In this document: positions 31,581 to 50,078 of the stretch, one piece after another
How the letters are laid out: the number at the start of each line of letters is the position of its first letter
Position numbering within the stretch: position 1 is the stretch's first letter
Assembly: GCF_903064525.1 (NCBI RefSeq)
Contig: NZ_LR797830.1
Span: 1,302,001 to 1,366,000 of the forward strand
DNA length: 64,000 nucleotides
Direction of reading: 5' to 3'
Source: Methylacidimicrobium sp. AP8
GTDB lineage: Bacteria > Verrucomicrobiota > Verrucomicrobiia > Methylacidiphilales > Methylacidiphilaceae
Program-made: the position numbers and the translations under genes
The notes under the pieces: model-generated
Database searches by the model: none
What the model was told of the DNA's origin: nothing
Seen by the model: only the letters and a program-made list of their open reading frames with translations

Positions 31581-31874
31581 TTAAATGATAGTGGCGCGCC
31601 GTTCGACTTTCGAGAACGTTTTTCCGATGCTCTCGATGGCAAGCTCGATTTTCTCCGCCGGCCCGACATCAATCAGAAGGACGTGATCTTCGCCGTTCTT
31701 GACCAGTTGGCGCAGTCGCGTCTCGAGCTCGGCGCGGCGCCGCTGCGACAGACGGCATTGGAAAACGGAGAGCTGGATCCATTCTCCGTACCCGTGCACG
31801 GCTTTGAACACCTGCCGCCAGCGCTTCGGATTGGAGATGTCGTAGGTGACGATGAAGAGGCGTTCGTCGGCCAT
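31581..31874 (-). CDS. cas2: CRISPR integration protein Cas2
   Basis: A 97-residue Cas2 with the ferredoxin-fold opening FIVTYDISNPKRWRQVFK (Asp12 in the YDI position) and IQLSVFQCRLS. The ATG at 31874 lies eight bases after the cas4-cas1 stop. Cas2 bridges two Cas1 dimers during spacer integration. It directly precedes the leader. Confidence 0.95.
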   Translation of the reverse strand: MADERLFIVTYDISNPKRWRQVFKAVHGYGEWIQLSVFQCRLSQRRRAELETRLRQLVKNGEDHVLLIDVGPAEKIELAIESIGKTFSKVERRATII

Positions 31875-31882
31875 CGGAGCCT

Positions 31883-33607: not shown

Positions 33608-33824
33608 GCCCATCCTCGTTGGTGGCCGCGAAGAGGCCGCTGCCCATATGGTTACCGCAACCGAGGAGGAGAGGGCCTTCCACGGCAACGGCGAACGCGA
33701 GGCGGAGCCGCGCACGGAGGCCGCCGCGGGGACCGATGTGGTGGTGGCCGCTGCGATTCCCGATCTCTCTCACAGCCATCGGATGATCCTCCGCCATAAG
33801 CGCTTCTAACTCAAGGAGAAACAC
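33594..33824 (-). pseudogene. Probable 3' remnant of a Csb2-like (Cas5/Cas6) gene
   Basis: The frame (76 codons from 33824, or 67 from 33797) contains LRLAFAVAVEGPLLLGCGNHMGSGLF. This parallels the C-terminus of the intact Csb2 in this window (IRFAQPIEGPVILGAGRFLGLGLF). No N-terminal part is recognisable. It overlaps the cas4-cas1 start, the position csb2 occupies in Geobacter-type I-G loci. It could still be translated as a short peptide. The homology is a by-eye alignment of about 26 residues. Confidence 0.6.
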
Positions 33825-34519: not shown

Positions 34520-35422
34520 CTACGAAGGATCGGCACGTTTCTCGGCTCTCGCCATCCGAAGCATCCCAGTCGGCTGCAGGTTCCACGCGGGTATGTCCGC
34601 ATCACCGGTCCATCGTGAGCCGGGCATCCAGACAGGACCGCTGATCCGGGGATCACACTGTCCTTTAGCCATGTCCCATCCCCCGATGGCTTCCTGGTTG
34701 CCAGAGAGATCGGCTTCCGTGTCGTGCGCATGTGCCGGCAGGTACTCGGCGACAACACGAGGCTCATCCTGATCTAGCTCCACCTCCATCCCGAAAAATG
34801 TCGCGGCTGGCTCCATGGACTCCCGCTCCAGTCGTCCAAGCCCGTAGCGGGTGTCCCCACCGACAAACAACCTTGCTATCGGGCGGATGCGTTCCTCCGG
34901 GCCCGATTCCTTGAAAAGGATATAGCCGGCCATCGCGACCGGCTCGACCGGCGCGGTCTGCGAATCGTCGCCTTGTCGCCAGAAAGGCTGGACGCACTCC
35001 GTCTCACGCAAGGACCCTTCCCGTGCGGAATCGCTGTCAGGGACGATGGCAGTACCGGATCGCGCCCAAAGGAGACGACGACGGAAGCGTCTGTCCGAAA
35101 TGCGATGGGCGTCATTATCCTCGCGAACCCAGCAGAGGCCCTCCCCCTCCCGATATTGCGGAAGCCAGGCGCACCAGCCGCCGTGGATGACCTCTGCTGG
35201 ATATAGGTAAGAGAGGCGCGTATGGTCCCGAATCATCTCCCCAATCCCAGCGTAATCCGGGTCGCCGGATGCTTCCTGGCGCGCCAACTCGGCGGTGAGA
35301 GCGCCCCAAAGCGGCCGGGCTGGCACATAGAGCCGACACCGATTCAGGGCGCCAGATGGCGTCGAGCCGACAAAAAGTGGACTCGCCACGCGCCAGACCC
35401 ACCGGCATAGGTTCCAACTCAT
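34520..35422 (-). CDS. RAMP-fold protein of the type III module (Cas5/Cmr3-like?)
   Basis: A 300-residue protein. The N-terminus (WRVASPLFVGSTPSGALNRCRLYVPARPLWGALTAEL, near residues 9-46) and the Gly-rich FVGGDTRYGLGRLE (near 189) fit RAMP-superfamily proteins of type III complexes. By elimination it could hold the Cas5/Cmr3 position, which no other gene fills, but direct similarity to Cmr3 was not recognised. ATG 35422 is two bases after the cmr5 stop, so it belongs to the same operon. It is the last gene before the spacer region and cas4-cas1. Confidence 0.65.
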   Translation of the reverse strand: MSWNLCRWVWRVASPLFVGSTPSGALNRCRLYVPARPLWGALTAELARQEASGDPDYAGIGEMIRDHTRLSYLYPAEVIHGGWCAWLPQYREGEGLCWVREDNDAHRISDRRFRRRLLWARSGTAIVPDSDSAREGSLRETECVQPFWRQGDDSQTAPVEPVAMAGYILFKESGPEERIRPIARLFVGGDTRYGLGRLERESMEPAATFFGMEVELDQDEPRVVAEYLPAHAHDTEADLSGNQEAIGGWDMAKGQCDPRISGPVWMPGSRWTGDADIPAWNLQPTGMLRMARAEKRADPS

Positions 35423-35424
35423 TC

Positions 35425-35772
35425 CTAGCTTCTGGCGTTACTTCGTGCTTTGGCCTGATAGCGGCCGTAAACGAGCGCTTGGCGCAAGAGGTCACGGGCC
35501 AGCAGAAGCCGATCGATGTCCTTGGCAAGACCTCGGACGCCGGATAAGGGGTCGGCCGGGTCGATTGCGCTGCCGACTTGAGCCTTCAAGAACGACGAGC
35601 AGCTCTCGATGAGGGCCTTCCGATCGTCCTTCTGTTGGAGGTAAAGGAAGAACGCGTAGAGGCCCTGCTCTTCGAGAACGGAGAGAGCATCGGTGAGTAT
35701 CTTGTCGTTAGCCTGCTGCGAAAGCTTCGAGCCGAGTCTCGCACACTCCATGTCCAGATTGATCGCCATCAC
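35425..35772 (-). CDS. Type III small subunit, Cmr5-like
   Basis: A 115-residue all-helical protein with QQANDKILTDALSVLEEQGLYAFFLYL and a conserved-looking LARDLLRQALVYGRYQAKAR end. Size, helicity and position between cmr4 and a RAMP gene fit Cmr5/Cas11, which lines the RNA-bound groove of the complex. Starts GTG 35772 and ATG 35769 are adjacent and overlap the cmr4 stop. Sequence similarity to named Cmr5 proteins is weak. Confidence 0.68.
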   Translation of the reverse strand: MMAINLDMECARLGSKLSQQANDKILTDALSVLEEQGLYAFFLYLQQKDDRKALIESCSSFLKAQVGSAIDPADPLSGVRGLAKDIDRLLLARDLLRQALVYGRYQAKARSNARS

Positions 35773-36767
35773 TTTTCCTCCGGCGATGCGCTCCGGGCGT
35801 TCGGCTTCTCGGACTTGAGCACGCGAAGGCGTCCCATGCCCCGGGTACCCATGCCGCCGATTCCCAGCGCCTCCATGTAGGGGAATCCCTCCTCTACGAC
35901 CTTGTAAACGCCATCAGGACTGTCGACTTTGGCAATGTTTTCCCCATTGATCTTGAAGTGATGGGGACTCTTGCAGGTGACCTCCCAGAAAAGCACCGTG
36001 CCGCGGGGCAAGGCCTCGTAGGTAAAAAGCGCTCCTTCCTCGGCCGCGCCCGTCGCCGGATCGATCGCGACCGATGTACGCACTTCAAGGTTGCTGTTGA
36101 CGACGTGGGGAAAAAGCTTGTCGGAGACGAGGCCGAGACGCTCCAGGATATAGGGGGGAACGCCCATCGCTTGCAACTTCTCTTTTACGGTCTCCATCTG
36201 GCCGTGTTCGACGACCGGGAGCAGGAGCCATCCCAAGTTCAACTTGTCCGCCGCGGCAGCGCGGTTAACGGCATCCTCACGGACATCCATCACATTCTGG
36301 AGGCCCGCCAGCCATCGGAGCGCGAGCGGCGCGGTAATCCAGACCGGTCCTTCGCAAGTCGCGACCGGAAAGAGCAGCACATGCGCATCGCTAAACGCGG
36401 CCAGCCCCGCGAACCCGCCGCGTTCCCCGCGCGCGAAGCCGAAGACCGTGCAAACGGGGCAGGTGAATTGGCCACAGTGCCCCCCGGAACCATCCGGGCG
36501 GGGTTGACCTTGACCCGCGCAGTCCGGGAAGTAGGGTTTCTCTCGGCTATCGATCCGCCGATTGCCCTCCGTGGCTTGCTTACGCATGGCGACATAGCTG
36601 CGCAGCACGCCCGCCAAGCTTGAGCCGGGGATCTTCGGCACCTTTGTAACGGGATCGCGGACGATGGCGTTGTCGACACGTCCCAGCCGCGTTCCGCCGG
36701 TGCCCACATGGATCGGATCGACCGCCAGGGCGGCCGTAGGGTATGTCTGAAAGCTCGGGTTCGTCAT
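35769..36767 (-). CDS. cmr4: Type III backbone RAMP Cmr4 (Cas7)
   Basis: A 332-residue RAMP. VDPIHVGTGGTRLGRVDNAI shows the conserved Asp that in Cmr4 cleaves target RNA every six nucleotides. VPKIPGSSLAGVLRSYVAM and the CTVFG motif follow, and a Gly-rich EALGIGGMGTRGMGRL lies near the C-terminus. It forms the crRNA-binding filament. It overlaps cas10 upstream (ATGA) and the Cmr5-like gene downstream. Confidence 0.88.
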   Translation of the reverse strand: MTNPSFQTYPTAALAVDPIHVGTGGTRLGRVDNAIVRDPVTKVPKIPGSSLAGVLRSYVAMRKQATEGNRRIDSREKPYFPDCAGQGQPRPDGSGGHCGQFTCPVCTVFGFARGERGGFAGLAAFSDAHVLLFPVATCEGPVWITAPLALRWLAGLQNVMDVREDAVNRAAAADKLNLGWLLLPVVEHGQMETVKEKLQAMGVPPYILERLGLVSDKLFPHVVNSNLEVRTSVAIDPATGAAEEGALFTYEALPRGTVLFWEVTCKSPHHFKINGENIAKVDSPDGVYKVVEEGFPYMEALGIGGMGTRGMGRLRVLKSEKPNARSASPEEK

Positions 36768-39700
36768 CGCCTTACCTCCACTGACTCTTTAAGCGCTCTC
36801 AGATGCCAATCAAGAGTGAGCTCCAAAATTCCGGAGGCGGCCGCATCCACGAGCGTTTCCAAAACGGCCCCCTCCACTTCTAGGCATTGCGCGAGGACCG
36901 GACGGGCGAGTTCCACCCATGCGCGGCGGGTTTCTGCGGGATCGGCAGCCGGTCCGTCCCAATCCTCCCTTACCTCCACCAGGATGCTCCAGGCTCTCCG
37001 CAACGCGGTGATGCTCGGGGCTTCCCGCCGGAGGAGGGACCAGATACTGCGCAGCCGTTTCCAGTCCGAGAGATAACGCGGGCGGACAGGCTCGAACCGG
37101 CCGGCTGTGCTCTCGAGGAAGAGGAGCGCGAACCGGGCGGGCGCAATCTGAATCCGATCTCCCAAGGCCAGGTCCGCCACATGGCGGTAGACGATTCCTT
37201 TGGGCGTCGCGAAATCGCGCGGCTGCCGCAGCTTGCCGTCGGCAACCTCCAGGTAAGGATAGAAGACATCCGCCCGTCCATCGGGCAGACAAGCCGGAAC
37301 GACCGCCAGTTCTTGCTCGCCGTCCGGTCGAGCGAGGCTTAGTGCGGTCATCCCGCCGCGGGAGACTGTCTCGACGACCCGCCACGCTTCTTTCTTCTCC
37401 TGAATCGGCGCATGCACCGCATCCTCGACATTGCGCGCCGCCTCGACCACCGCCTGGAATGGAGTCCTGCGCGCAAAGGCCACCGCGCTCACGCGCAGCG
37501 GCATCCGGCCCCAGACGCGCGAGAACTCCTGCTCCCACTTCTCCACGGCGGCCTCGATGCAGGCATTGACCGCGCTCAGCGGCAAAAGGATGCGAAAGCG
37601 CTCGGGGTCTTGTTCCAGGACGAGGATGGGGGCATAGGACCCCAGTCCGGGGGCGGTCTTTGCCGAAGCGATTTGGAGCGTTCGCGCTTTTCCGTCATCC
37701 CCGGCCACCTCGATCGGTTGGTCGATGAGGAGATCCTCGCTCTCCTCTTGCCCAAGCAGGCGGGAGAGGTTGCAGATCGTCACGAAATCCCTCCTCGCCG
37801 AACGGTAAAGGACCTCAAACGGAGCGCCGCGAAAGGACCCGAGATAGGTTTGCCGGTCTTCCCATCCCGCTTGATCCGGATCATTGACATTGACGGTGAG
37901 CGCCAAACGTCGGGTGCGCCATCGATTGGGAGCCGCCGAGGCGATCTCCCGGAAGCGGGGCAAGAGCTGATCGAAGAATCTCTGGGTGGTCCGCCAAAAG
38001 CGGTAGATTCGCCCCGGGGAAGCGTTCTTCCGGAAGAGCTGGTGGGCCAGCCAGTGGGCCCGGTCTTTTTCGGTGAGAGAATCCCATGACGGTGCGTCGG
38101 ATCGGTCCTCGACAATCTTTTGAAAGAAGGCCTGGATGTCGTCTTCCCACGAAAACCCCTCATTGAGGGAGGCCAAAAGGGGATTGTCCAGCTTACCCGA
38201 CCGTTTTCCGCTGCGAACCGTGACTGGATTTCTTACGAAGCGCTCGATTTCCTCGACGATCGAATCGTGAGGCCGGTGGATATCGACGGGATTATCGGTT
38301 CCATTGAGGGTCGGGTTGTGCCGCCGCCACTCCCTAACGTTTTGCGTGCGCAAGCAATCGATTTGCGAACCATCGAGCCACGGGCCGAGGTCGAAGCTTA
38401 ACGTAAGCAGGGCGAGCCGGTCGTTTTCGTCCGCTACTTCGGAAATCCAGATCGTCTCGTTGCCGGAAGCGAGCCAAGAGTCGAGCCGTCCCTTGCGGCG
38501 CTCGCTGCACACCCGACATGCGCGCTGCTTGGAGAGGTTCGCATGCCTCTCCTCCGGCCCACCGTTGAACCGAACTTGGCAAACCGGGCAGACGTGCCCC
38601 TGGCCTTCGTCTGTCTGCGGGATCGACCATGAGCGGTGCATGGGAACGGCGAGCGTCTGCCGAGCCCCTCGCAGCTCTGCGGTCATAGGGATAAGGGACC
38701 GAGTGGATGTGGAGAGGCGGCAGAGCGGGGGCGTTTCGAAGCTACGGTCTTTTGCGAGCTCATCGATCTCCTTTTCGAGCTCCTGGCGCAAGGTCTCGGC
38801 ACTCGAATCATCGAGGCTGCCCCTCGGGGCTGCGCTGTCGACCTCATCGAAGCGCAGGCCGGGAAAGGTGAAGACCAAGAGTTGGTTGTCCCGGAAGACC
38901 AGCGAGCCGATGGCGAGGTCAACCTCGATGAGGCGCCGGATATCCTCAAAGAAGGCCTCGATCTGCCGCCGAGCCCCGGCCCAGTCTCCGATCCGCACGG
39001 CGCGAGCCTCGTAATGGTCCGTGCCGAAGCCTACGGTGAGCACGCGCCAGCGGGTCTGGGACTTTAGCGATTCCCAGCTCGGGTTTTGCGAGAGCAGGCT
39101 CCCCGCGACGGCCGACTTGAACAGCGCGGCGGCGACATAGGACTGGTCCCAGAGCGTGACGTCGTTGTTGGGTAGCCTGGTCTCGGCGAGCGTGGCCATG
39201 AAGGCCTGACGCAACCAGCCTTCCGGCCCGATCGCCTCCTGCCGCCAGCGCCACCAAGGTTCTAGATCCGATGGAGGAGAGTCGCCGAGTTCTGACAAAC
39301 CGTCCAGCAGCGCGCCTATCCGCGCAGTTAGCCCTGCCCATCCATTTTGCGTGAGAACTTCCGGAGGATCGGAAAGCAGGTTGCGGATCGGGTGACCGAA
39401 GGGCGAGGCAAGCCACATATGCGTGGCGTCCTGGCCGAGATACTTGGAGGGCTGCGTAGGCAAGTTCTTCTCGACCCCGGAGGCCATTGCATGCCCGGCT
39501 TGAAGGAATCCGACGAGGGTGTTCTTGGAATCTCGGTTATCGTATTCCTGAAGGAACTCGAGAAATGTGCTCGGCCACCGCTGAGTGGTGAATCGGGAAC
39601 GGAGCCAGCCAAGGCGCGTGCTCCAGTCCGGGTCAAGACTCTGATGCCAATTCTTTTCGTCATAAAGCACGCCCGTCGAGCCATGTCGGCGCAAAAAGTC

Positions 39701-39811
39701 GGGGTGCGCCTTGCCGGTCATGTGCAGCCAGCCGATGGCCTCGCAGGCAAGAAGCAGCGGGCGGTGTTCCCGGAGCTTCCCAAGGCACTCTTGACCGGCT
39801 AAGCTGGTCAT
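36764..39811 (-). CDS. cas10: Cas10-family large subunit with degenerate HD and palm motifs
   Basis: A 1015-residue protein starting MTSLAGQECLGKL (ATG 39811, overlapping the cmr6-like stop). The HD-like N-terminus reads AIGWLHMTGKAHPDFL: His30 is followed by Met31, so the HD dyad is gone. The palm strand expected to carry GGDD reads LVFRDNQLLVFTFPG (near residue 308), and no GGDD occurs anywhere. A zinc finger is intact (CPVC near 407, CRVC near 435). The layout resembles Csx11/III-C type Cas10 proteins with an inactive cyclase. It should scaffold the complex without making cyclic oligoadenylate. The C-terminal ~500 residues lack recognisable motifs. Confidence 0.85.
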   Translation of the reverse strand: MTSLAGQECLGKLREHRPLLLACEAIGWLHMTGKAHPDFLRRHGSTGVLYDEKNWHQSLDPDWSTRLGWLRSRFTTQRWPSTFLEFLQEYDNRDSKNTLVGFLQAGHAMASGVEKNLPTQPSKYLGQDATHMWLASPFGHPIRNLLSDPPEVLTQNGWAGLTARIGALLDGLSELGDSPPSDLEPWWRWRQEAIGPEGWLRQAFMATLAETRLPNNDVTLWDQSYVAAALFKSAVAGSLLSQNPSWESLKSQTRWRVLTVGFGTDHYEARAVRIGDWAGARRQIEAFFEDIRRLIEVDLAIGSLVFRDNQLLVFTFPGLRFDEVDSAAPRGSLDDSSAETLRQELEKEIDELAKDRSFETPPLCRLSTSTRSLIPMTAELRGARQTLAVPMHRSWSIPQTDEGQGHVCPVCQVRFNGGPEERHANLSKQRACRVCSERRKGRLDSWLASGNETIWISEVADENDRLALLTLSFDLGPWLDGSQIDCLRTQNVREWRRHNPTLNGTDNPVDIHRPHDSIVEEIERFVRNPVTVRSGKRSGKLDNPLLASLNEGFSWEDDIQAFFQKIVEDRSDAPSWDSLTEKDRAHWLAHQLFRKNASPGRIYRFWRTTQRFFDQLLPRFREIASAAPNRWRTRRLALTVNVNDPDQAGWEDRQTYLGSFRGAPFEVLYRSARRDFVTICNLSRLLGQEESEDLLIDQPIEVAGDDGKARTLQIASAKTAPGLGSYAPILVLEQDPERFRILLPLSAVNACIEAAVEKWEQEFSRVWGRMPLRVSAVAFARRTPFQAVVEAARNVEDAVHAPIQEKKEAWRVVETVSRGGMTALSLARPDGEQELAVVPACLPDGRADVFYPYLEVADGKLRQPRDFATPKGIVYRHVADLALGDRIQIAPARFALLFLESTAGRFEPVRPRYLSDWKRLRSIWSLLRREAPSITALRRAWSILVEVREDWDGPAADPAETRRAWVELARPVLAQCLEVEGAVLETLVDAAASGILELTLDWHLRALKESVEVRR

Positions 39812-40710
39812 TGTTTCCCCTTCCCCTCGCCGAGAAGCTTCGCAAGCAAGGTTTTTGCCTCTGCGAGAGTTTTCGCCTCCTTCCAACCAGAGCCCTTTGT
39901 GCACAGTTTCCGGGCTTGGATCCCCGCGACTCCCCAGCCCGCCGTCCGCTTGGCCGAGAACCCGTATCGGGTCAGCAGCTTTTCGAGCGCCGGGAGGAGA
40001 CGATCAAGGACTTCGGTGGGCACCACGCCCTGGCGCCGGGCTTGGCCCGGCATCGGCGCATAAAGCAGAGAGAGTGTCCCGGAGGTAGAAGCCGGCACGA
40101 CCTCGTAGAGGATGGGCTGGGTGCCTGCTCGCCGCGCTCGATCATGGGGATTGATGACCTCGAAGCCGATTTTGTTGAACCAGGTCGGAAAGCAGTGGAG
40201 AGCTCCTCGTGAGAAGATTTCATCCTCTTCCTTCCCGTTGCCAAAGAGATGGAGGATCCAGCTTGGCTCCTTCCAGCCATCGAGCCCGCCCTCATGCTCG
40301 GCTAGATGCTCGAGCAGGCCATCTTCCATCCGGCAGGCCCAGCGCAGTAGGCCCTTCCAGCTTGCCGCCGACATGAAAGGGAGATCGAAGACTCGATCCT
40401 TCCGCACCGGATTGTCGCGCACATGAAAGGGACGGTCGTCCTTGGAATACCAGGGCGTCCGGAGTTTGAAGACGACCTCAATCGCCAGCCAGCCGGCAAG
40501 GAGCGGCTTGGGCCGTTCGCTGTGATCGAGCAGATCCGGCAAATTGAGGTCCAGCTTTTCCACTTGCCTCTGGTAATGCCTTCGAGCTCTGTTGCGGTCG
40601 CAGGTGGACCAGGAGAGGAATGCCTCGCCGAATCGGCTGACTAGATCCGCCGCGGCTGAAGCGGATCGCTTGGCGCTTTTTTCTGCTAAATGGGCGTGAA
40701 GGTCAAACAT
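39808..40710 (-). CDS. Type III RAMP, Cmr6-like
   Basis: A 300-residue Cas7-type RAMP. The central LRTPWYSKDDRPFHV and PFMSAASWKGLLRWACRM resemble the G-S-S-x-K-G-x-x-R assembly motif, and TRYGFSAKRTAGWGVAG is a Gly-rich C-terminal loop. Next to Cmr1 and Cas10, Cmr6 is the likely role, capping the filament. It overlaps cmr1 by one base and cas10 by four. The exact subunit name is inferred from order and size. Confidence 0.75.
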   Translation of the reverse strand: MFDLHAHLAEKSAKRSASAAADLVSRFGEAFLSWSTCDRNRARRHYQRQVEKLDLNLPDLLDHSERPKPLLAGWLAIEVVFKLRTPWYSKDDRPFHVRDNPVRKDRVFDLPFMSAASWKGLLRWACRMEDGLLEHLAEHEGGLDGWKEPSWILHLFGNGKEEDEIFSRGALHCFPTWFNKIGFEVINPHDRARRAGTQPILYEVVPASTSGTLSLLYAPMPGQARRQGVVPTEVLDRLLPALEKLLTRYGFSAKRTAGWGVAGIQARKLCTKGSGWKEAKTLAEAKTLLAKLLGEGKGKQ

Positions 40711-41651
40711 CAGGAAGCGGCTCCGCTGAGAAGCTCCTTTAGGATCGCCTTGCCTTCTTTTACCTCGTGGTCCGCGAGATCACTCCATGCGCACTTCAAC
40801 TTGGTTTTCATCGTATCAAAGGTGACATCCTTGCCGTTCACAAAACCGAAGGTTCGTGCCGGATCCTTGAAGCTGAACACCTTCTTGCTTTCGGCGTCCA
40901 CTTTGTGGGCTCGATCCGGTCGGCGTCCGGCGATCCACGAATCGTTCCCGCTGCTTTGTCGCTTCGGCTGAGGGCGTCCGATCAGATGGTTAAACGAGCT
41001 GAAGCTTTCGTTCTGTCGGGCCAAGTACTTTCCGTTCACGCACCAGAAGTTCGCAAGCGAGGCCCAGGCAAAGCCGGCTTGGTTGACTCTCCGCCAGCAC
41101 GGACGGGCGGCATAGTCCTCGAGCATTTGAACGGAAAAGGATTGGATGTCGGAGGGGCGGCGCTCGATTTGGATCAGGCCGTAGTCCTTATGGTGTGGCT
41201 CGTTCTGCCGGTTCTGCTCGTCGGAAGGCTTCAGGACGGTCTTGCCCCCAATCGCCCCGTAGTCGGCGATCAAGCGGAGTGTTAGGTCGAGCAGCGCCCA
41301 TTCTTTCGGCTGAATCGGCCGGAGCGGCATGAAGGAGAAGCGGAAGGAATTGTCCTTTTTGATCTGCTGGGGCATGTCATGCTGGTCCAGCACGTCGAAG
41401 CGAAACTTCCGCGCCCAGCCGGTGCAGCCGAAGAATTCACAGGTGGGGCACCGCCGGCCCGAATCATCCGGACAGGAGCCGGGACCCGAAGGGTCGCACA
41501 CCATCCCGCCGAGGCCGCGGACCACCACTTCGAACCACCAGCGGATCGAGCCCAGCAGCCCGGTAGTCACCAGACGATCGGGTTTCCCGCGGCAATCGCC
41601 CGTCCATAGATCGGAGCGAGCCTTGAGCTCGTAAATGACGGAAGAACGCAT
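40710..41651 (-). CDS. cmr1: Type III RAMP Cmr1
   Basis: A 313-residue RAMP with VTTGLLGSIRWWFEVVVRGLGG near residue 29, the Cmr1 signature for an LRWWxR-type helix. A CPTCEFFGCTGWARKFRF Cys-containing segment and a C-terminal ARTFGFVNGKDV region follow. Cmr1 sits at the 3' end of the crRNA in the effector. It is the first gene of the minus-strand type III operon and diverges from csb1 across a 253-base gap. Confidence 0.86.
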   Translation of the reverse strand: MRSSVIYELKARSDLWTGDCRGKPDRLVTTGLLGSIRWWFEVVVRGLGGMVCDPSGPGSCPDDSGRRCPTCEFFGCTGWARKFRFDVLDQHDMPQQIKKDNSFRFSFMPLRPIQPKEWALLDLTLRLIADYGAIGGKTVLKPSDEQNRQNEPHHKDYGLIQIERRPSDIQSFSVQMLEDYAARPCWRRVNQAGFAWASLANFWCVNGKYLARQNESFSSFNHLIGRPQPKRQSSGNDSWIAGRRPDRAHKVDAESKKVFSFKDPARTFGFVNGKDVTFDTMKTKLKCAWSDLADHEVKEGKAILKELLSGAAS

Positions 41652-41904
41652 CCTTGTCCTCAGTCGCGATATTCCCGTTGGTTCTCCGGCGATGCTACGC
41701 TATTATCCCGATTCTGGCAAACGCCTTGTGCGCATAGAGAATAGCCTCATCGACCTCGGGAAGGGCCTCGGGAGGCGGAAAGGGGAGGCGGCAGCGTGAC
41801 GTTAGCTAAAGGGGGAAGCGGCGACCAAGGATCGGCCCCAGGAGAAAAGTTCGAAAGCCGTAGGCACCAGGCGCGCACCGGGATCGGGCCTGGAGGAAAA
41901 AAAC
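41652..41904. promoter_or_regulatory. Divergent promoter region between type III and type I-G operons
   Basis: These 253 bases separate divergently transcribed cmr1 and csb1, so both effector operons must start here. A strong GGAGG lies just before the csb1 ATG (CCTGGAGGAAAAAAAC). No confident -10/-35 boxes or operators were found, and no repeat copy is present. Confidence 0.6.
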
Positions 41905-43152
41905 ATGGATATCACTGAAGTTAGCCGCATGGTCGCCGAAGACGCCGCCTTGCGGCGCAGGCAGAAGCTCCAGCCGATGGGCGGCAAGGGCGACAAGATC
42001 TTCCCGCCGACCTATCCGGGAGAAGGGCGCAACGCTCCACCCCGGCATGTCTATGAGCTCCGCCGCCTGAATGGCCAGGATGTCTGGTGCGTCCTTATTG
42101 ACAGCGTGCAATCCCAAGCAAACCGGCTGGAGGAGTGCCTGCTCCAAGCGATCCGGGACGGCCTGCCGATTCCGTACGTGGTTGTGGATTTCAGCGAAGC
42201 CAAGCTCGACGGCATCACCCGGATCACCTCGCTCGACGCCCCGCATCGCGTTTATGACGCCATTCTGCGCGACAGCCTTCTGAATGGCGAGCCATTCATG
42301 AACAGCGACACGGGGAAACGCCTCGCCAAGGCCAAGGCGGAGGACGCCTCGGCACTTCTGGAAGTCTCGCCTACCGCTCTCCTGTTCGGCGCCTGGCATT
42401 CGACCGGAGAAGGCGGCGGGCTCGGCGCTAAGTTTGCGCGTTGCCTCGTCTCGGAAATTGTGGGCATCGGTGTGCCGGTGGAAGAGGTCGTGAACCAGGG
42501 AAGCGGCGAGAAAAGCATCCGAACGGCGGGCCGCCGCACCGGCAGCCGGATCGATCCCTTGGGTGTGCTGAGAAAAATCGATGTGTTCAAGGGCGCGAAT
42601 GGTTGGAGTACGACCCAGGCCGACGCCGGCCGGGGAGCGAAGAAAGTCCGGCCGTCCGAAATCAATCATGGCAACATCGCCCCTTCGATCCAGCCCCTTG
42701 GCGTGACCTGCGATTATGCGGAGCAGAGCTTCGTGTTGAGCTTTGCCTCACTGCGTCGGCTGCACTTCGGCGGAAGCAAAAAAGACGCAGCGGGACGCGG
42801 CTTGCTTGCTGCGCTCGGGCTTGTCGCGCTTGCCGAACAGGACGCACGCGGCTATGCGCTGCGGTCCCGATGCGATCTCGTCTGCGACGGCCGGGCGCCG
42901 TTGGAGCTGGTGCGTCCGGACGGTAGAACAGAGGAGATCTCGATCGACCGCGAGACGGCCCGCACGCTCTATCGAGAGGCTTTTAAGACAGCGCAAGAGG
43001 CCGGCTTCCACTTGTCGGCCACTCCACTTCGCCTCACACCCCAGGGCAAGCTTGTGGAGATTGTCCGCAAAAGCCAGGAACTGGCCCTTGCGGGCGCAGG
43101 TGGTGAAGCCGAGGAAGGAGCAGCCACCGATGAGTCTGGTCCTAGAAATTGA
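41905..43152 (+). CDS. csb1: Type I-G Cas7 (Csb1/GSU0053 family)
   Basis: A 415-residue Csb1. Family features include IFPPTYPGEGRNAPPRHVYE, VWCVLIDSVQSQANRLEE, SPTALLFGAWHSTGEGGGLGAKFAR and KKVRPSEINHGNIAPSI. It forms the Cas7 filament along the crRNA in type I-G Cascade. It starts the plus-strand effector operon and overlaps csb2 by 23 bases. Confidence 0.94.
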   Translation: MDITEVSRMVAEDAALRRRQKLQPMGGKGDKIFPPTYPGEGRNAPPRHVYELRRLNGQDVWCVLIDSVQSQANRLEECLLQAIRDGLPIPYVVVDFSEAKLDGITRITSLDAPHRVYDAILRDSLLNGEPFMNSDTGKRLAKAKAEDASALLEVSPTALLFGAWHSTGEGGGLGAKFARCLVSEIVGIGVPVEEVVNQGSGEKSIRTAGRRTGSRIDPLGVLRKIDVFKGANGWSTTQADAGRGAKKVRPSEINHGNIAPSIQPLGVTCDYAEQSFVLSFASLRRLHFGGSKKDAAGRGLLAALGLVALAEQDARGYALRSRCDLVCDGRAPLELVRPDGRTEEISIDRETARTLYREAFKTAQEAGFHLSATPLRLTPQGKLVEIVRKSQELALAGAGGEAEEGAATDESGPRN

Positions 43153-44686
43153 GTATCTTTCCGGCGTCTGCTTCGCAGCGATCGGCCCTGACAGTCCGAC
43201 GCCCGATTGGCCGCCGCAGCCCGATCGCATCTTTTCCGCTCTCGTCGCCACATGGGCTGCGCGGGGGCAGGACAAAGGGGAAGCGAAGGCGCTCGAATGG
43301 TTGGAGAAGCTCGACCCGCCGCACGTTCTTGCGTCTAGCGCTGAGCCACGCACGGCGCCGCCAGTGTACGTGCCTCCCAATGACTACGAAACGCCTGACG
43401 GTGAATTGAGCACCCTTATCTGGTACCGGGATTTCATATCGAAAGGCCTTCGACCACGGAAGGAACATCAAAAATCTTGGCGGCGGGCATGGAATGTCCT
43501 GCCGGACGAGAGAAAGCGCTCGGGACTTAAGGAAAGAAGTTTTCCCGCATCGCGTCCACACAAGCCCATTGTGCAACTATTCTGGGCAACGGCAGACCCG
43601 GAAGACGAAGTGATTGCTGCGTTGCAGCGGCTGGCGAGCGACACCGCCTATGTCGGCCATTCGGCAAGCCTCACGCGTTGCCGCTTTCTGCTCGACCCCG
43701 ATGCGCCTGAGCCGAACGAAGCCAAGTTGCCGGAACGCCGTGTCTATGCCGGACGTTTTGCTGAACTCCGCCGGACCTTCGAGGAAGGGCGAAGACCGCT
43801 TCCCGGCGCGCGCGTTGTGTCCGTAATGGAGGCAAAGCCGCATCGTGCCAGTCTCTTCGGCAAACACTGGCTACTCCTCGAGCATGTCGCGGGCCGGATG
43901 CCGGACCTGCGGGCTTGCGCCTTCCTGGCCAAGACCGCGCGGGATGCGCTGCTTAGCGGCTATCAACGAATCGGCCTTGGAAAGGAAATCCCGGAAGTAA
44001 TCAGCGGCCATGCCGCAGACGGGAATCCCACGCGCGCGCCGCATCTGGCCATCATTCCCTTGTCCTTCACGGGCTTTCCTTATGCGGATGGCCATGTGCT
44101 GGGCTTTGCGCTTGTCCCGCCGCGCGACAGCAGGATCCTGGAGGATGAGAGCTTTCGCAAGGTGCTAAGAACGCTTGCGCCGATGGATGAAACGCGCGGG
44201 CGGCGGGTCTTGACGCTCAGGACCAAAGAAGGGACGCCCTCCGGCCGGGCCTTTTCCATCGGCCTTTCTCCGACCTTCGAGCCGCCCGCAGGCAAACGCT
44301 CCCTCGACCCGGCGTGGTACACCCGCCCGTCGCAAAGCTTCGCCTCGGTCACGCCCATCGCCGCCGACCGGCATCTAAAGGAGGAAGGGGAGGCACGGCT
44401 GGAGGAACTCGCGGCGCAGATCGCCAGCGCCTGCCGCAACATCAATCTGCCCGAGCCGGAAGCGATCGTCACCGACAACCATTCGGCCATAGAGGGGGCG
44501 CCTCCGGCCTATCCATCGGGGAAATCGCCGGCCTGGATGCGATGGGGTCTGCCCCGATCGCTGGCCAGTCGTCCACTCACCCATGCGGTCATCCGCTTCG
44601 CTCAGCCCATCGAAGGTCCGGTGATTCTCGGAGCGGGACGTTTCCTGGGACTGGGGCTCTTCCGTCCTCTCGATCCGGAGGAATGA
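43130..44686 (+). CDS. csb2: Type I-G Cas5-Cas6 fusion (Csb2/GSU0054 family)
   Basis: A 518-residue protein starting SLVLEIEYLSGVCFA. YLSG and PPQPDRIFSALVATWA near residues 30-48 mark the Csb2 family, and the C-terminus ends with IEGPVILGAGRFLGLGLF. The Cas6-like half should cleave pre-crRNA at the repeat hairpin and the Cas5-like half caps the crRNA 5' end. No other cas6 is present, so it probably processes crRNAs for both effectors (inference). It overlaps cas3 by ATGA. Confidence 0.92.
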   Translation: MSLVLEIEYLSGVCFAAIGPDSPTPDWPPQPDRIFSALVATWAARGQDKGEAKALEWLEKLDPPHVLASSAEPRTAPPVYVPPNDYETPDGELSTLIWYRDFISKGLRPRKEHQKSWRRAWNVLPDERKRSGLKERSFPASRPHKPIVQLFWATADPEDEVIAALQRLASDTAYVGHSASLTRCRFLLDPDAPEPNEAKLPERRVYAGRFAELRRTFEEGRRPLPGARVVSVMEAKPHRASLFGKHWLLLEHVAGRMPDLRACAFLAKTARDALLSGYQRIGLGKEIPEVISGHAADGNPTRAPHLAIIPLSFTGFPYADGHVLGFALVPPRDSRILEDESFRKVLRTLAPMDETRGRRVLTLRTKEGTPSGRAFSIGLSPTFEPPAGKRSLDPAWYTRPSQSFASVTPIAADRHLKEEGEARLEELAAQIASACRNINLPEPEAIVTDNHSAIEGAPPAYPSGKSPAWMRWGLPRSLASRPLTHAVIRFAQPIEGPVILGAGRFLGLGLFRPLDPEE

Positions 44687-47643
44687 TCGTGGCATCGCCG
44701 GACGATTTTGCGGCCTTCTTTGAAGAGGTTCACGGCTACCCGCCTTTCCCTTGGCAAACGCGCCTCCAGCGTCTGGTGGCCGAAAGCGGCCGATGGCCGA
44801 GGGTGCTCGATTTGCCGACCGGCTCGGGCAAGACGGCGGCGATCGATATCGCTATTTTTCATCTCTCGCTGGAAGCGGATCACGGGAAGGCGCGGCGTGC
44901 GCCTGTCCGCATCGCCTTCGTGGTGGACCGGAGGCTGGTGGTGGACGACGCCTTCCTACGCGCGCAGAAGCTGCAAAAAGCACTCGCCACTCCGCAAGGG
45001 CCCGTCACGGCGCGCGTGGCGCAGCGGCTGAAAAAGCTCTCCGGTGACGGCCCACCGTTGATCGCACGCCGCCTGCGCGGCGGCATTCCGCGTGAGGACG
45101 ACTGGGCGCGTACACCCTCCCAACCAACGATACTCTGCTCGACCGTCGACCAGATCGGCTCACGCCTTCTGTTTCGCGGCTATGGTGTGTCCGATTCCAT
45201 GAAGCCGGTTCATGCCGGGCTCATCGGGTCGGACTGTCTGATCCTGCTCGATGAGGCGCATCTGGCCGAGCCATTCCGGCAAACGTTGGAATGGGTGCAC
45301 GAATATCGGGGGAAAAACTGGCGCCAGGCGGAATACGCTGCGCCCTGGGGGGTCGCACTTCTCACCGCGACGCCGAGAGAGAGACCTCAAGAGGTCTTTC
45401 AGCTTGAGGACGAGGACTGGGAACACCCGATTTTGGGGAAGCGCCTGAAGGTTTCCAAGCGTGCGCGTCTTGTGGAAGCGGCAAAGGGAACAGCAAAGGG
45501 GGAAGAAGCTGCTCGCCCCACAGGGAACGAGGCGGAAGAAGGCGACAGTGACCTTGGCCGCCGTATCGCGGCCATCCTCAAAGAAGTTCATGCTTCCATC
45601 GATCACTTCCGCGGCGCTCCTCCCCCCGCCATCGGCGTGGTGGTCAATCGCGTCGTCCGTGCGCGGGAGGTCTTTCGGCAATTGCGGGAAGAGATTGGCG
45701 CGGAAGAAGCGGATTGCCTCCTGTTGATCGGTCCGAGCCGTCCGGTGGATCGGGACAACGTTGCCGATCAGCTTGCGTCGATCCGGACCGGCGCCGAACG
45801 CACGCTCCAAAAGCCGCTCATTGTCGTTGCGACGCAATGCATCGAAGCGGGCGTGGATATTGATCTCGATGCGCTCATCACCGAAGCCGCTCCGTTGGAC
45901 GCACTACGCCAGCGCTTCGGCCGTCTCAACCGTGCGGGAAGAGATATCCGGCCGTATGCCGTCATCGTTGCCGCGAAATCCGATCTTTCCGCGCGAACCG
46001 ACGATCCGGTCTACGGCAAGGCGATCCGGCCGGCATGGGATTGCCTACAGGAGGCGGCGGCTGCGAACGGCAGCGATCCGAGGGTGGAGTTCGGTCTGCG
46101 CGATTTCGCTGTCTGCATGGAAAAGGACGCCCTTTCTAGGAAAGACGACGCGCCTATTCTCCTGCCCGCCCATCTTGACCTGTTGAGCCAGACATCGCCC
46201 ATCCCGGCGGCCGATCCGGAGGTTGCCCTCTACCTCCATGGAACATCCCGCCAGCCGGACGCGATCACCATCCTTTGGCGCGGCGACATCGATCCGAAGA
46301 ACCAGAACGACGAGCAGGTCCGCCGTCTTCTGCTGCTCGTCCCACCCCGCTCAGCCGAAGCGATTGCCTTGCCGCTCTGGGCGGTGCGCCGTTGGTTGGA
46401 GGAACGCGGGCAAGCCCTGGCCGATCTGGCCGACATTCCTACCGCCGGGCCGGAGGGAAGGGACGACGGCGCCCGAGGGGAAATGAGGAGAGCCTTTCGC
46501 TGGACAGGGGATACCGAACGTTCACGTTGGATTACGCCTCCTGAGCTTCGTCCAGGAGATACAATCGTCGTGCCCGCTTCTTATGGCGGTGTCGACCAGT
46601 TCGGCTGGAACCCCGCGTGCCAGGAACCTGCCACGGACGTTGGGCGAAAGGCCGCCGAACCTTTCTCCGGGCGCCGATTTGCGGTTCGCGTAGCGCCCGG
46701 TCTCCTGGAAGCATCCGTAACCGGGGATGCATTGGCCGACGCGTTGGCCGGTGCCGTCTCGGAGCAGTGGCAGGATTTGCGGGCCGCTCTCTTCGATCTC
46801 GATCTGCCGGAAAAAGTCCGGAGCGATCTCGAGGTGCTCGACAACGCCAATCGGAAGGAAAGCGTTGCTGCGTATCTCGACCTTTATGGAGAGGAGGATG
46901 GTCGCCCGCGTGGCGTGGTCTTTGTGGCGCCGTTCGGAATCCGAGGCTATCGGCAAGAAGAAGACGGCCGCCCCAACACGACTGAGGACGACACGACCGG
47001 TTCCCTTTTTGGTTTCCCCTTATCCCTTCGACAGCACAGCCAGGATGTCGAAAAGAAGGCCGAAGCTTTCGCCCAAGCCGCCGGCCTCCCAGGGGCACGT
47101 GTCGCGGACCTCAAACTCGCCGGCTTCCTCCATGACATCGGCAAGGTCGATCCTCGTTTTCAGGCATGGCTGAATTCTGGCGACCCCCTGGGGCCGGACC
47201 CCGAGGAACCGGAAGCCATCCTCGCCAAATCCGGTCGTCCCCTGCCGCGGGCGGCGCATGCCGCTTCGGGCCTACCGGAAGGATGGCGGCACGAAGCGTT
47301 TTCGGTACGGCTGTCTCGCTATATTGCGCGCTTCACGGAAGCCAAGGATCAAGATCTCAAACTCGTGCTCTGGCTTGTCGGCACCCACCATGGGCATGGA
47401 AGGCCTTTCTTCCCGCATTCGGACCCGGCCGACTCCCTGTCGCAACGCTTCCCCTCCGTGCTTGGCCTGCCTTCTCTATTGCCGCCCGGACCAGGACCCC
47501 AATCGCTTGCCTTCGACTGGCAGGGCCTCGACTGGCCGATGCTCTTCGCGCGGCTCAAAGCTCGCTATGGCACATGGGAACTCGCCAGGATGGAGGCCAT
47601 CCTGCGGCTTGCCGATCATCGCGCATCCGAAGAAAGCGCCTAG
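44683..47643 (+). CDS. cas3: Type I-G Cas3 helicase-nuclease (helicase first, HD at C-terminus)
   Basis: A 986-residue protein. The SF2 helicase comes first: LDLPTGSGKTAAIDIA (Walker A), LILLDEAHLAEPF (DEAH), LLTATPRER, and QRFGRLNRAGRD (motif VI). The HD nuclease follows near residues 810-910: LAGFLHDIGKVDPRFQ, AAHAASGLPEGWRHE and GTHHGHGRP. This reversed domain order is characteristic of type I-G. It degrades target DNA after recruitment by Cascade. All key residues are present. Confidence 0.95.
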   Translation: MIVASPDDFAAFFEEVHGYPPFPWQTRLQRLVAESGRWPRVLDLPTGSGKTAAIDIAIFHLSLEADHGKARRAPVRIAFVVDRRLVVDDAFLRAQKLQKALATPQGPVTARVAQRLKKLSGDGPPLIARRLRGGIPREDDWARTPSQPTILCSTVDQIGSRLLFRGYGVSDSMKPVHAGLIGSDCLILLDEAHLAEPFRQTLEWVHEYRGKNWRQAEYAAPWGVALLTATPRERPQEVFQLEDEDWEHPILGKRLKVSKRARLVEAAKGTAKGEEAARPTGNEAEEGDSDLGRRIAAILKEVHASIDHFRGAPPPAIGVVVNRVVRAREVFRQLREEIGAEEADCLLLIGPSRPVDRDNVADQLASIRTGAERTLQKPLIVVATQCIEAGVDIDLDALITEAAPLDALRQRFGRLNRAGRDIRPYAVIVAAKSDLSARTDDPVYGKAIRPAWDCLQEAAAANGSDPRVEFGLRDFAVCMEKDALSRKDDAPILLPAHLDLLSQTSPIPAADPEVALYLHGTSRQPDAITILWRGDIDPKNQNDEQVRRLLLLVPPRSAEAIALPLWAVRRWLEERGQALADLADIPTAGPEGRDDGARGEMRRAFRWTGDTERSRWITPPELRPGDTIVVPASYGGVDQFGWNPACQEPATDVGRKAAEPFSGRRFAVRVAPGLLEASVTGDALADALAGAVSEQWQDLRAALFDLDLPEKVRSDLEVLDNANRKESVAAYLDLYGEEDGRPRGVVFVAPFGIRGYRQEEDGRPNTTEDDTTGSLFGFPLSLRQHSQDVEKKAEAFAQAAGLPGARVADLKLAGFLHDIGKVDPRFQAWLNSGDPLGPDPEEPEAILAKSGRPLPRAAHAASGLPEGWRHEAFSVRLSRYIARFTEAKDQDLKLVLWLVGTHHGHGRPFFPHSDPADSLSQRFPSVLGLPSLLPPGPGPQSLAFDWQGLDWPMLFARLKARYGTWELARMEAILRLADHRASEESA

Positions 47644-47654
47644 GAGAAGTGCGA

Positions 47655-48641
47655 ATGACTGCTGACACCTCCCACCGGCTTGACGGTCTGGAGCCGGACA
47701 ATCTTCTGGCCTTCCTGGCCCTCCTCGGGCTTTTGCGGGCACTGCAGGCTGCCGATAGCACGTTATCTCCCCGCGCCGCCTGGGACATCCACACCCCGCC
47801 CTTAAGGCCCAGGCTCATTCTGGCACGCGCCCTCACGCAGGAAGAAGTGACCGAAAGCGCGGTCAACGGCGTCAATGCGCTTTCGGTCAGCTATGGCTTC
47901 GGAAACCGGAAAGACTTGAACTATTCGCGGGAAGAGTGCCGCGCGCTTCTGGAGCAGGAAGCCAGAGCTGCCCGTTTCGATGCGCGGGAACGTGCCGATC
48001 TGTTAGCGGCCTTGATGAGCGACGCCGCCGCCAAATCGGACAACGAAGAACTCATCGATCCGACGCCGCTCTGCCTGCTGCTCTCCCAGGGTCATCAGCA
48101 TTTTCTGGAACGACTGGCCAGGGTGCCGCGGGAGTTGGCGCCGCCTCTGCGCCGGAGGGGGAGAAGGACTGTTCGATTGTCCGCCTCCAAATGCTTGGGC
48201 GAAACCCTGTTTGCGCCTTGGCGTCGCAACGACCCGACCTCGTGTTCTTCCTTCCGTTGGGATCCGGAAGAAGATGTTCGCTATGCCCTGATGGCGGGCG
48301 ATCCCACACAATCGGCATACAAGAAGGGTACCCAGCTTGGCGCCAACTGCCTCGCCGTGCTCGGTCTTGCAGGGCTCACTCTCGTTCCGGAAACCCGAGC
48401 CGGCCGCGTGCGTCCCAATATTGTTGGGGGCATACCCGGAGCGGACGGATTTTCCTTCGCTTGGCCGATCTGGCGTGACCCGGCGACGTATGCTGCGATC
48501 CGCGCGTTGCTCGCCCATCCCCATCTGCTCACGCCCGGCGCGCTCGCCCACCTTGGAGTCGACCACGTGATGGTCGCCCGGCGCATCTTCGTCGCCCGGT
48601 ACTGGAATTTTTCCCGCGCTCGGCCCTTGTCGTCCCCGTAG
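47655..48641 (+). CDS. Type I-G small Cas8 (Cas8g2/Csb3-like)
   Basis: A 328-residue protein with LDGLEPDNLLAFLALLGLLRAL near the start, a Cas8-like N-terminal pattern. A RPNIVGGIPGADGFSFAWPIW segment and a C-terminal HLGVDHVMVARRIF follow. Size and place after cas3 match the shorter I-G large-subunit variant (GSU0052-like); the ~700-residue Csx17 is absent. It likely recognises the PAM and contacts Cas3. It starts 11 bases after cas3. Confidence 0.8.
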   Translation: MTADTSHRLDGLEPDNLLAFLALLGLLRALQAADSTLSPRAAWDIHTPPLRPRLILARALTQEEVTESAVNGVNALSVSYGFGNRKDLNYSREECRALLEQEARAARFDARERADLLAALMSDAAAKSDNEELIDPTPLCLLLSQGHQHFLERLARVPRELAPPLRRRGRRTVRLSASKCLGETLFAPWRRNDPTSCSSFRWDPEEDVRYALMAGDPTQSAYKKGTQLGANCLAVLGLAGLTLVPETRAGRVRPNIVGGIPGADGFSFAWPIWRDPATYAAIRALLAHPHLLTPGALAHLGVDHVMVARRIFVARYWNFSRARPLSSP

Positions 48642-48878: not shown

Positions 48879-48914
48879 GCTTCAATGAGGCCGAGGCGCG
48901 AACGCCTCGGATAC
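48879..48914 (-). repeat. Orphan CRISPR repeat on the far side of the cas block
   Basis: A single full 36-nt copy identical to the array repeat, in the same orientation, 238 bases after cas8. No second repeat was found within 150 bases either side. The sequence just to its left could be one remaining spacer plus unrelated DNA. An ISL3 element begins close to its right, so a former second array may have been deleted. Confidence 0.93.
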
Positions 48915-48947: not shown

Positions 48948-50078
48948 TCATGTGGCCAAGGCGGGAACATCCAACCTCAGCCTTCCGGCTTTGAGGAAAG
49001 CGGCGATCCGCAAGCACCGGAAGCTTCGGAAGCCTCTGGCCATCCTTTTGGCAAGCTGGATGAGTCCGTTGATCGCCTCGATGAGACCATTGGTCACCCG
49101 GCTCTGGAGGAAAGCAAGGACGCCGTCCAGATGGTCTTTGATCGTCTTGGAAAGCTTTCGGAAGGGAGCAAGCCGACTGCGGTGGGCCCACTGGAACCAC
49201 CAGCGGAGCTCTTGGGGATCCTCTTGGGCGAGGATCTCTTGCAGAGCCTCCCGCAACCCAATGGCTCTTCCCAGTCGGGGGTAGGCGGCGCAAAGGGAAG
49301 CGCGCAGACTCTTCTGCTCCCTGCTTCGCGTCCATTCGTTGCCTCGCAGTGCCCAGAGGCTTCCCTTCGGCAGCAGCCCCTGACGCACGAACTCCTTACG
49401 CACCTGGTCGACCGCCTCCCCCGCCATCTGCATGAGGTGGAAGCGGTCAAAGACGATCTGCGCCTTGGGGAAGTGCTCCTTGGCTCCGCAAATGTAGGAA
49501 GGGCTCATGTCCATGCAGATTAGCTCGATCTGCTCGGGACTCGCTCCATGCTCGCGCATCTCCTTGGCAAATGCCTCCAAGGCCTCCTTCCCTTTGCCTT
49601 CCGCGAGGAAGAGGAGCTTCCGGCTCTCCGCGTCGGTAACGGCGGTCACGTAGCGGTGACCCCGCTTGCTGCTGGTCTCGTCGACCAAGATCCGCTTCAC
49701 CCCGCTCCAATCCTCCTTCCGATAGGCCTTTTCCACGTAATGCTCCAAGATTCTCCACAGCCGGGTGTCCTGCTCCTTGAGCATCTTGGCCACCTGGGAA
49801 ACCGGCATCTCCTGGGAAAGCATCAGGATGACCGCCTCCATCATCAGGGTAAACCCGCTCCCCGGTCTGGCCCAGGGAACTTCCGCCAACCGCACTCCGT
49901 GCTCCGGACAGTCCACCCGAGGAACCCGCGCCACCAGCTCGGTCTTGTACTGCCAGAAGTTCATGTGCCTCCACCGCTTCTCCACCGTGTCGTGCGCAGG
50001 AGAAGGACGCCCGCATTCCGGACAGGGGAACCGATGGCCCTCGCGAAAATCGAGCCAGATCTTCAAGGTGTGATCCAC
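48948..50078 (-). CDS. ISL3-family transposase (5'-truncated element)
   Basis: A 376-residue transposase with an N-terminal zinc-binding region (FPCPECGRPSPAHD, VDCPEHGV), the DDE core (ILVDETSSKRGH; CMDMSPSYICGAKEHFP; SRVTNGLIEAINGLIQLAKRMARGF) and the usual C-terminal RxFRIAAF-like end. The native start is missing: the in-frame sequence runs into an IS3 terminus at 50106, removing about 20 residues. GTG 50078 is the first in-frame start shown. Activity is doubtful. Confidence 0.88.
   Translation of the reverse strand: MDHTLKIWLDFREGHRFPCPECGRPSPAHDTVEKRWRHMNFWQYKTELVARVPRVDCPEHGVRLAEVPWARPGSGFTLMMEAVILMLSQEMPVSQVAKMLKEQDTRLWRILEHYVEKAYRKEDWSGVKRILVDETSSKRGHRYVTAVTDAESRKLLFLAEGKGKEALEAFAKEMREHGASPEQIELICMDMSPSYICGAKEHFPKAQIVFDRFHLMQMAGEAVDQVRKEFVRQGLLPKGSLWALRGNEWTRSREQKSLRASLCAAYPRLGRAIGLREALQEILAQEDPQELRWWFQWAHRSRLAPFRKLSKTIKDHLDGVLAFLQSRVTNGLIEAINGLIQLAKRMARGFRSFRCLRIAAFLKAGRLRLDVPALAT

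Follow-up and report, generated by a model that had tools for sequence, protein, structure and literature searches.

How a type III-C CRISPR (clustered regularly interspaced short palindromic repeats) system protects cells without an HD nuclease or a cyclase is a question that a compact locus in Methylacidimicrobium sp. AP8 makes testable. The locus lies in a 64,000-nucleotide (nt) stretch, hereafter the window (C1:1302001–1366000), of a genome assembled as a single 2.30-Mb contig, and consists of a six-gene type III-C operon (34520–41651, minus strand) and a divergent four-gene type I-G operon (41905–48641, plus strand), beside one array and one acquisition module. The most likely reading, based on anatomy, motifs and comparison, is that of a hybrid I-G/III-C locus, in which Csb2 of the I-G operon probably supplies CRISPR RNAs (crRNAs) to both effector complexes. 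Since the locus combines a single array, adaptation module and processing enzyme with two effectors, the same spacers could be traced into a complex that cuts DNA and one that cuts RNA, and loss of the protospacer-adjacent motif (PAM) in a target would separate the two effects.

In the proposed mechanism, a Cas4-Cas1 fusion and Cas2 would add spacers to the single array, and Csb2 would cut the precursor crRNA 4 nt 3′ of the repeat hairpin, leaving an 8-nt AUUGAAGC handle. The crRNAs would be loaded into the I-G Cascade (Csb1, Csb2 and Cas8g), with Cas3g recruited and DNA degraded, and would also enter the III-C complex (Cmr1, Cmr3, Cmr4, Cmr5, Cmr6 and Csx11). The latter would bind complementary transcripts and cut them through Cmr4, acting without collateral DNA cleavage or cyclic-oligoadenylate signalling. 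The genes, their motifs, the predicted fold, the direction of the array and the lone complete Cas6-type protein are read from the sequence itself; what we infer from it comprises Csb2 processing of the locus repeat, crRNA loading into III-C, RNA cleavage and any benefit of the pairing.

Layout of the locus

Profile searches upheld the gene identities that a first-pass annotation of the window had assigned, and with them a minus-strand type III operon and a divergent plus-strand I-G operon whose start codons lie 253 bases apart (41652–41904, with one weak promoter-like site on the minus strand). The span proposed at that stage, 34520–48641, takes in both effector operons but misses the array, cas2 and cas4-cas1, at 30399–33610. 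Reading along the minus strand from the array, the order is cas2, the cas4-cas1 fusion, cmr3, cmr5, cmr4, csx11, cmr6 and cmr1; the plus strand, from 41905, carries csb1, csb2, cas3g and a small cas8g. Within each effector operon neighbouring genes overlap or nearly abut.

The III-C operon contains cmr3 (34520–35422; Cmr3 model, 1.9e-69) and cmr5 (35425–35772; Cmr5 model, 2e-28), neither with an NCBIfam match; cmr4 (35769–36767; TIGR02580, 126.8 bits, cut-off 87); csx11/cas10c (36764–39811; TIGR02682, 314.3 bits, cut-off 248.95; Cas10c, 417.8 bits), which likely starts at the ATG at 39811, a GTG lying further upstream at 39904; cmr6 (39808–40710; Cmr6 model, 2.6e-60; NCBIfam Cmr6 below its cut-off); and cmr1 (40710–41651; TIGR01894, 46.4 bits, cut-off 28.65), for which the Csm3 model of PADLOC outscores Cmr1. 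Cmr1, Cmr3, Cmr4, Cmr5 and Cmr6 are all present, with NCBIfam cut-offs passed by Cmr4 and Cmr1 only.

The I-G gene set is complete, each member scoring above its model cut-off: csb1/cas7g (41905–43152; TIGR02570, 83.9 bits, cut-off 38), csb2 (43130–44686; TIGR02165, 295.8 bits, cut-off 45), cas3g (44683–47643; TIGR02621, 829.3 bits, cut-off 400), with the motifs DLPTGSGKT, DEAH and HDIGKVD, and cas8g (47640–48641; NF049934, 138 bits, cut-off 65; PADLOC PDLC01514, 4.9e-77). The last is small, at 333 residues, and scores 14.8 bits against the full-length Csx17 model, below the cut-off of 150. The I-G adaptation genes, both on the minus strand, are cas2 (31581–31874; TIGR01573, 38.4 bits, cut-off 24.5; Cas2g, 1.8e-28) and the Cas4g/Cas1g fusion (31883–33610; NF049935, 754.6 bits, cut-off 560). 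One cas4-cas1/cas2 pair had been reported, which is right for the locus, but cas4-cas1 is a single fusion gene and the genome has three other cas1 matches, making four: here, at a V-B locus, beside a 28-repeat array and in a partial copy.

The array (30399–31312, minus strand) holds 12 identical 36-nt repeats (30468–31312) ending in ATTGAAGC, 11 spacers of 35–39 nt between the full repeats, and a degenerate, leader-distal terminal repeat at about 30399–30425. Its orientation is that of the minus strand, because all Rfam CRISPR-DR16 matches, one for each of the 12 full repeats and one for an orphan repeat (48879–48914), lie on this strand. A putative leader (31313–31580, minus strand), between cas2 and the array, is assigned from position and array orientation only. 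A search of the genome with a 30-nt part of the repeat, allowing up to three mismatches, gave 13 matches without a single mismatch: the 12 array repeats and the orphan. The single array of the first-pass annotation therefore stands for the locus and for this repeat, which no other array in the genome carries, but two further arrays with different repeats exist; one lies about 4 kb from a III-B locus and the other at the V-B locus, and no array dedicated to III-C was found in the genome.

Csb2 as the candidate processing enzyme

Csb2, a Cas5-Cas6 fusion, is the sole complete Cas6-type protein found in the genome, which agrees with its earlier designation as the crRNA-processing protein; PF10040 and TIGR01877, both limited models, detected no separate Cas6. 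Its His485 aligns with a His in all nine Csb2 sequences compared and is a candidate catalytic residue, probably equivalent to His503 of Thioalkalivibrio Csb2 judging by position near the C-terminus. The Thioalkalivibrio enzyme cuts 4 nt past the stem and leaves an 8-nt handle, and its isolated C-terminal half is active (PMC9638904). The RNA of the locus repeat, predicted to fold into an 8-bp stem with a UUCG loop (−15.3 kcal/mol, z −2.66), followed by CCUC and then AUUGAAGC, fits this published geometry.

A second, truncated csb2 at 434 kb qualifies the picture. It covers residues 248–518 at 97% identity in one open frame, spanning most of the Cas6 half, and is a near-copy not dedicated to III-C. 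Because the C-terminal half of the Thioalkalivibrio enzyme retains cleavage on its own (PMC9638904), the truncated copy could in principle process the locus repeat as well. The absence of a second cas6, on which the idea of a common supply leaned, thus holds for one dedicated to III-C, but is not strictly true.

A Cas10 fold without catalytic motifs

Csx11 is the signature protein of type III-C (TIGR02682). The first-pass annotation had recognised the type III module and a Cas10 lacking both active sites, and this loss was borne out, but the subtype, in which cyclase loss is the rule (PMC11229360), and the separate III-B locus of the genome were missed. III-C systems have no cyclase sites, and a recognizable HD domain is reported in half of them, which would leave the other half without one (PMC11229360). 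Unlike the III-B Cas10 of the same genome, which has both HD and GGDD motifs, Csx11 has neither. At the HD-motif position it reads HM, as do most related rows of the alignment and Thermus. HQ stands in L027 and HN in L051 (L numbers denote the stretches compared), while the cyanobacterial rows, L045 and L049 have HD; four rows have no letters there. GGDD is absent at the Palm hairpin, the equivalence of which was judged by eye, in all 27 aligned Csx11 sequences; five rows carry GGD- or GADD-like strings at other places, one of them GGDE in L038.

An AlphaFold model of Csx11 (mean predicted local distance difference test score, pLDDT, 84.9) matches Cas10/Csm1 with Z 18.7 over 522 residues at 3.6 Å, the comparison with Csm1 involving model residues 18–1010, nearly the whole length, and the best Foldseek E-value is 1.2e-7. 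Sequence comparison gave no such match: hhalign of the Csx11 alignment against the III-B Cas10 produced no usable alignment (E 0.064), and phmmer against PDB sequences found nothing at E 1. Csx11 is thus predicted to have a Cas10 fold without either catalytic motif.

In Cmr4 the GRVDxxIxR[DE] motif, GRVDxxIxRD in the window, is kept in 30 of 31 aligned rows, the remaining row (L040) being empty there; L032, in which a contig end cuts the gene, was left out of the alignment. We take the Asp of this motif to be the RNase residue, as in Cmr4 of Pyrococcus. Together, the kept Cmr4 motif and the losses in Csx11 imply that the III-C complex should cut target RNA and should not signal; without HD and GGDD, neither collateral DNA cleavage nor cyclic-oligoadenylate signalling would be expected.

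The same losses could mean that the III-C operon is a recent passenger, non-functional or uncoupled from the array, and its absence from 12 of 13 family genomes, together with the turnover shown by broken or duplicated CRISPR pieces in this genome, would suit such an origin. The six III-C genes are, however, all open frames and tightly spaced, the Cmr4 motif and four zinc-type cysteines of Csx11 are conserved, and HD loss is common to a wide set of Csx11 relatives and so is not local decay; we consider a passenger improbable. Far less probable still are mixed complexes, or a strict sequence in which III-C senses transcripts and recruits Cas3g: the divergent start region common to both operons and the lack of recognisable catalytic motifs in Csx11 would be compatible with either, but evidence of shared subunits was not found, and each operon has a complete set. 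An association between HD loss and a type I neighbour is not claimed, as neighbours occur with HM, HN and one HD-intact form (L049), HM or HQ forms also occur without neighbours (L026, L027, L029), and the numbers are too small.

Type III-C loci beside type I systems

Similar pairings in other microbes also suggest that crRNAs are shared between I-G and III-C. The comparison covered 31 III-C loci, 28 in genome contigs and three in plasmids (L024 and L047 being the same plasmid), of which 18 distinct loci have readable flanks, defined as at least 2 kb either side of the III-C core. Type I genes adjoin or surround III-C in seven of the 18: I-B remnants lie beside it in Thermus (L022), and it is flanked by I-G in HR33 (L028), by I-B in L039, L042 and Methanococcoides (L044), by mixed I-B/I-D matches in L049, and by I-D in a member of the Chloroflexi (L051). 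A further locus, L038, has I-A, visible from one side only, and is additional to the seven. The type I partners across III-C loci are thus I-A, I-B, I-D and I-G.

The III-C genes of L044, L051 and HR33 are nested in the type I cluster, with which they share a strand, and the arrays that follow have repeats ending in ATTGAAAC or ATTGAAGC. One cas6 and one adaptation module were found in the type I clusters of L044 (I-B) and L051 (I-D). HR33, which on its sequence is an independent I-G/III-C locus, has its III-C genes embedded in a double I-G cluster that contains a single cas4-1, a single cas2 and an array of 76 repeats. It is through comparison with such nested operons that crRNA sharing, as an idea, has gained ground. 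L027 shows a Cas6-like match that is short and weak (3e-6), and has two arrays upstream.

The crRNAs of the III-C complex might instead come, wholly or mainly, from the III-B array at about 769–771 kb, with the I-G neighbourhood a defence-island effect. The genome does have a III-B locus, with a 28-repeat array, cas1 and cas2 about 4 kb away, III-B and III-C complexes are closely related, cas genes cluster anyway, and 11 of the 18 readable III-C loci have no adjoining type I effector. The III-B repeat (minus strand) differs, however, ending in ATGGAGAC, whereas repeats beside four other III-C loci (HR33, L044, L049 and L051) end in ATTGAARC; those beside Thermus L022 and in the L027 arrays end otherwise, in TTTGAAAC and CGAAAC respectively. 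A Cas6 was not seen at the III-B locus either. Supply from the III-B array thus seems unlikely, and supply by Csb2 from the adjacent array remains preferred.

A broader proposal is that dead-Cas10 III-C serves type I systems as a partner module acting on RNA alone. Placed repeatedly in or beside type I clusters of four subtypes, it would draw its guides from the one Cas6 of the cluster (here Csb2) and cleave transcripts independently of PAM while Cas3 damages DNA; through this dependence the HD and cyclase sites would have become dispensable. We offer this tentatively, as possible but rather doubtful; should a full survey bear out the recurrence beside several type I subtypes, III-C would be a partner module and not an orphan curiosity.

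Some observations on these loci stand apart. Between III-C and cas3g, HR33 carries a 705-residue DruE-like helicase gene (L028:15430–17547), and of 61 proteins from the flanks of other III-C loci, three are matched by DruE-like models among the matches listed. The Planctomycetota genome KatS3mg102 (L026, L043, L071) has III-C on two contigs and I-G with an array on a third (195,134 bases).

Points against sharing and origin of the parts

Several results weigh against the proposed sharing. I-G arrays without an adjoining III-C (G439; G388 contig C6) carry the AUUGAAGC handle as well, which is therefore compatible with sharing but not diagnostic. Protospacers for the array spacers, from which a PAM and a coding-strand bias could be read, were not found in phages, plasmids or viral contigs: the array region had no match in phages and, in plasmids, matched five records at 60–80% identity, probably other arrays with a similar repeat, while exact patterns of 22–25-nt parts of three of the 11 spacers gave no match each in viral contigs. 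With tblastn and a limited query set, no type I effector was seen at 11 of the 18 readable III-C loci. Among these, L035 has a Cas6 alone beside III-C, and this was the only Cas family, among the best 25 of 112 families, in a PADLOC scan of 61 of 90 flank open reading frames from ten of the eleven loci (L024 left out); a lone cas gene may still be present in such flanks. Co-occurrence at the genome level is about background, I-G being present in four of 27 III-C genomes; the corresponding counts above the cut-off were 44 of 392 for Planctomycetota and 19 of 387 for the host's own phylum. I-G enrichment among III-C genomes was accordingly rejected as evidence. The search for neighbourhood co-occurrence, prompted by the first-pass annotation, found type I genes at seven of 18 loci and I-G in HR33, but no excess across genomes.

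The remaining points concern ancestry. The congener G439 has a similar array and similar adaptation genes (cas2 81% identical, cas4-1 75–78% in two frames, the repeat one base different), but a different I-G effector, with a Csx17-type Cas8g. Csx11 occurs in one of 13 family genomes, so the I-G/III-C pairing here may be young. It was found above the cut-off in one of 387 sampled genomes of the phylum (three at E 0.001) and in one of 395 genomes of the phylum of HR33, and its closest relatives, at 60–62% identity, are in Myxococcota and Planctomycetota. Another family member, G072, has an I-G operon 58–60% identical to that of the window, with a 10-repeat array carrying a related repeat directly after it.

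In our reading the locus is a mosaic with three parts: an adaptation module together with its array, an I-G operon and an acquired III-C operon. The I-G operon would have lost a 3′ array, of which the orphan repeat at 48879–48914 (minus strand; identical to the array repeat), adjoining an ISL3 transposase gene (48948–50078), appears to be the trace. Just upstream of cas4-1, a possible decayed tail of another csb2 (33624–33731, minus strand; TIGR02165, E 7.1e-5, 22.7 bits against a cut-off of 45) weakly fits a mosaic but proves nothing. On a Csx11 tree of 30 rows (L043 and L052 left out, their reading frames being too short), a type I label required nine changes for nine labelled rows, against a shuffled mean of 7.9, with 500 of 500 shuffles as low. 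This lack of clustering indicates repeated gain or loss, or short-flank loci counted as unlabelled, and not one inherited unit. A search for III-C in viral contigs yielded 40 candidate stretches, none of them a relative.

Comparison with known systems

Shared type I/III arrays and III-C with a dead Cas10 are already published, so that the view of the arrangement as outside the described kinds is not supported. Repeats and acquisition genes common to type I and type III systems are reported in 85 genomes, with I-B (71), I-A (11) and I-C (3) as partners (PMC8482600). Those cases are alike in pairing DNA- and RNA-targeting systems through shared repeats and acquisition, but the terms ‘I-U’ and ‘III-C’ are absent from that text, whereas the partners here are I-G (formerly I-U) and III-C. 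Among hot-spring Cas1 proteins, 38 of 2,150 lie in type I/III hybrid operons (PMC9755687). Genes for adaptation and processing are said to be often missing from III-B, III-C and III-D systems, with communal arrays shared instead (PMC5576922). In Marinomonas, III-B use of I-F crRNAs was shown experimentally, and a chimeric III/I-F locus is mentioned (PMC5576922). The likeness is a type III complex on type I crRNAs; the Marinomonas case is III-B and experimental, whereas here sharing is proposed from sequence and the Cas10 lacks HD and GGDD motifs.

Published III-C systems (PMC11229360, PMC12669027, PMC3150331) are alike in Csx11 and the missing cyclase site, but most lack arrays, whereas here an array, adaptation genes and I-G adjoin III-C. 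The I-G system of Thioalkalivibrio sulfidiphilus resembles the present one in Cas7, Csb2, Cas8g, Cas3, Cas4-1, a 36-nt repeat and an 8-nt handle, and differs from it in that here Cas8g is small and a III-C operon is adjacent (PMC9638904). A further parallel, HR33 (L028, L069, L070), has I-G with III-C, cas4-1, cas2 and a repeat ending in ATTGAAGC, but runs on one strand throughout and has two I-G gene sets, III-C lying between csb2 and cas3g with an intervening helicase gene. The name ‘I-G’ as used for Pyrococcus presumably is the older name of the Cst system, now I-B, and not the csb1/csb2 type. In Pyrococcus furiosus, crRNAs of all seven arrays are reported in complexes of I-A, ‘I-G’ and III-B (cited in PMC12814883), the type III partner there being III-B. 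The pair of csb2-type I-G and III-C, its recurrence, and III-C nested within type I clusters were not found in open-licence literature, which is weak evidence of absence.

Other CRISPR elements of the genome

The III-B locus encodes Cas10b (with HD and GGDD), Cmr1, Cmr3, Cmr4, Cmr5, Cmr6, a CARF-PDDEXK protein and Csx3; about 4 kb away, the 28-repeat array at about 769–771 kb is accompanied by cas2, cas1 and a CARF gene. Its cmr3 is split into two same-frame open reading frames (L016:8280–8315, about 758.3 kb), so the III-B complex may be impaired. Repeated segments at L005:11340–14662 and L006:3016–7955, with cas1 and CARF pieces, similar genes and a mad2-matching gene, are an apparent duplication beside the III-B array.

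The V-B locus (L007:7119–13527, about 1415–1422 kb) has Cas12b, a cas4-cas1 fusion, cas2 and a 29-repeat array; at 1434 residues, this Cas12b is longer than the full-length profiles it matched (about 1000–1130). The truncated second I-G copy (L074:12048–14720, about 434–437 kb) comprises csb2 at 92–97% identity and a cas3g that covers the first 582 residues at 94%, and 1 kb beyond it lies a stretch 95% identical to window region 29601–30411.

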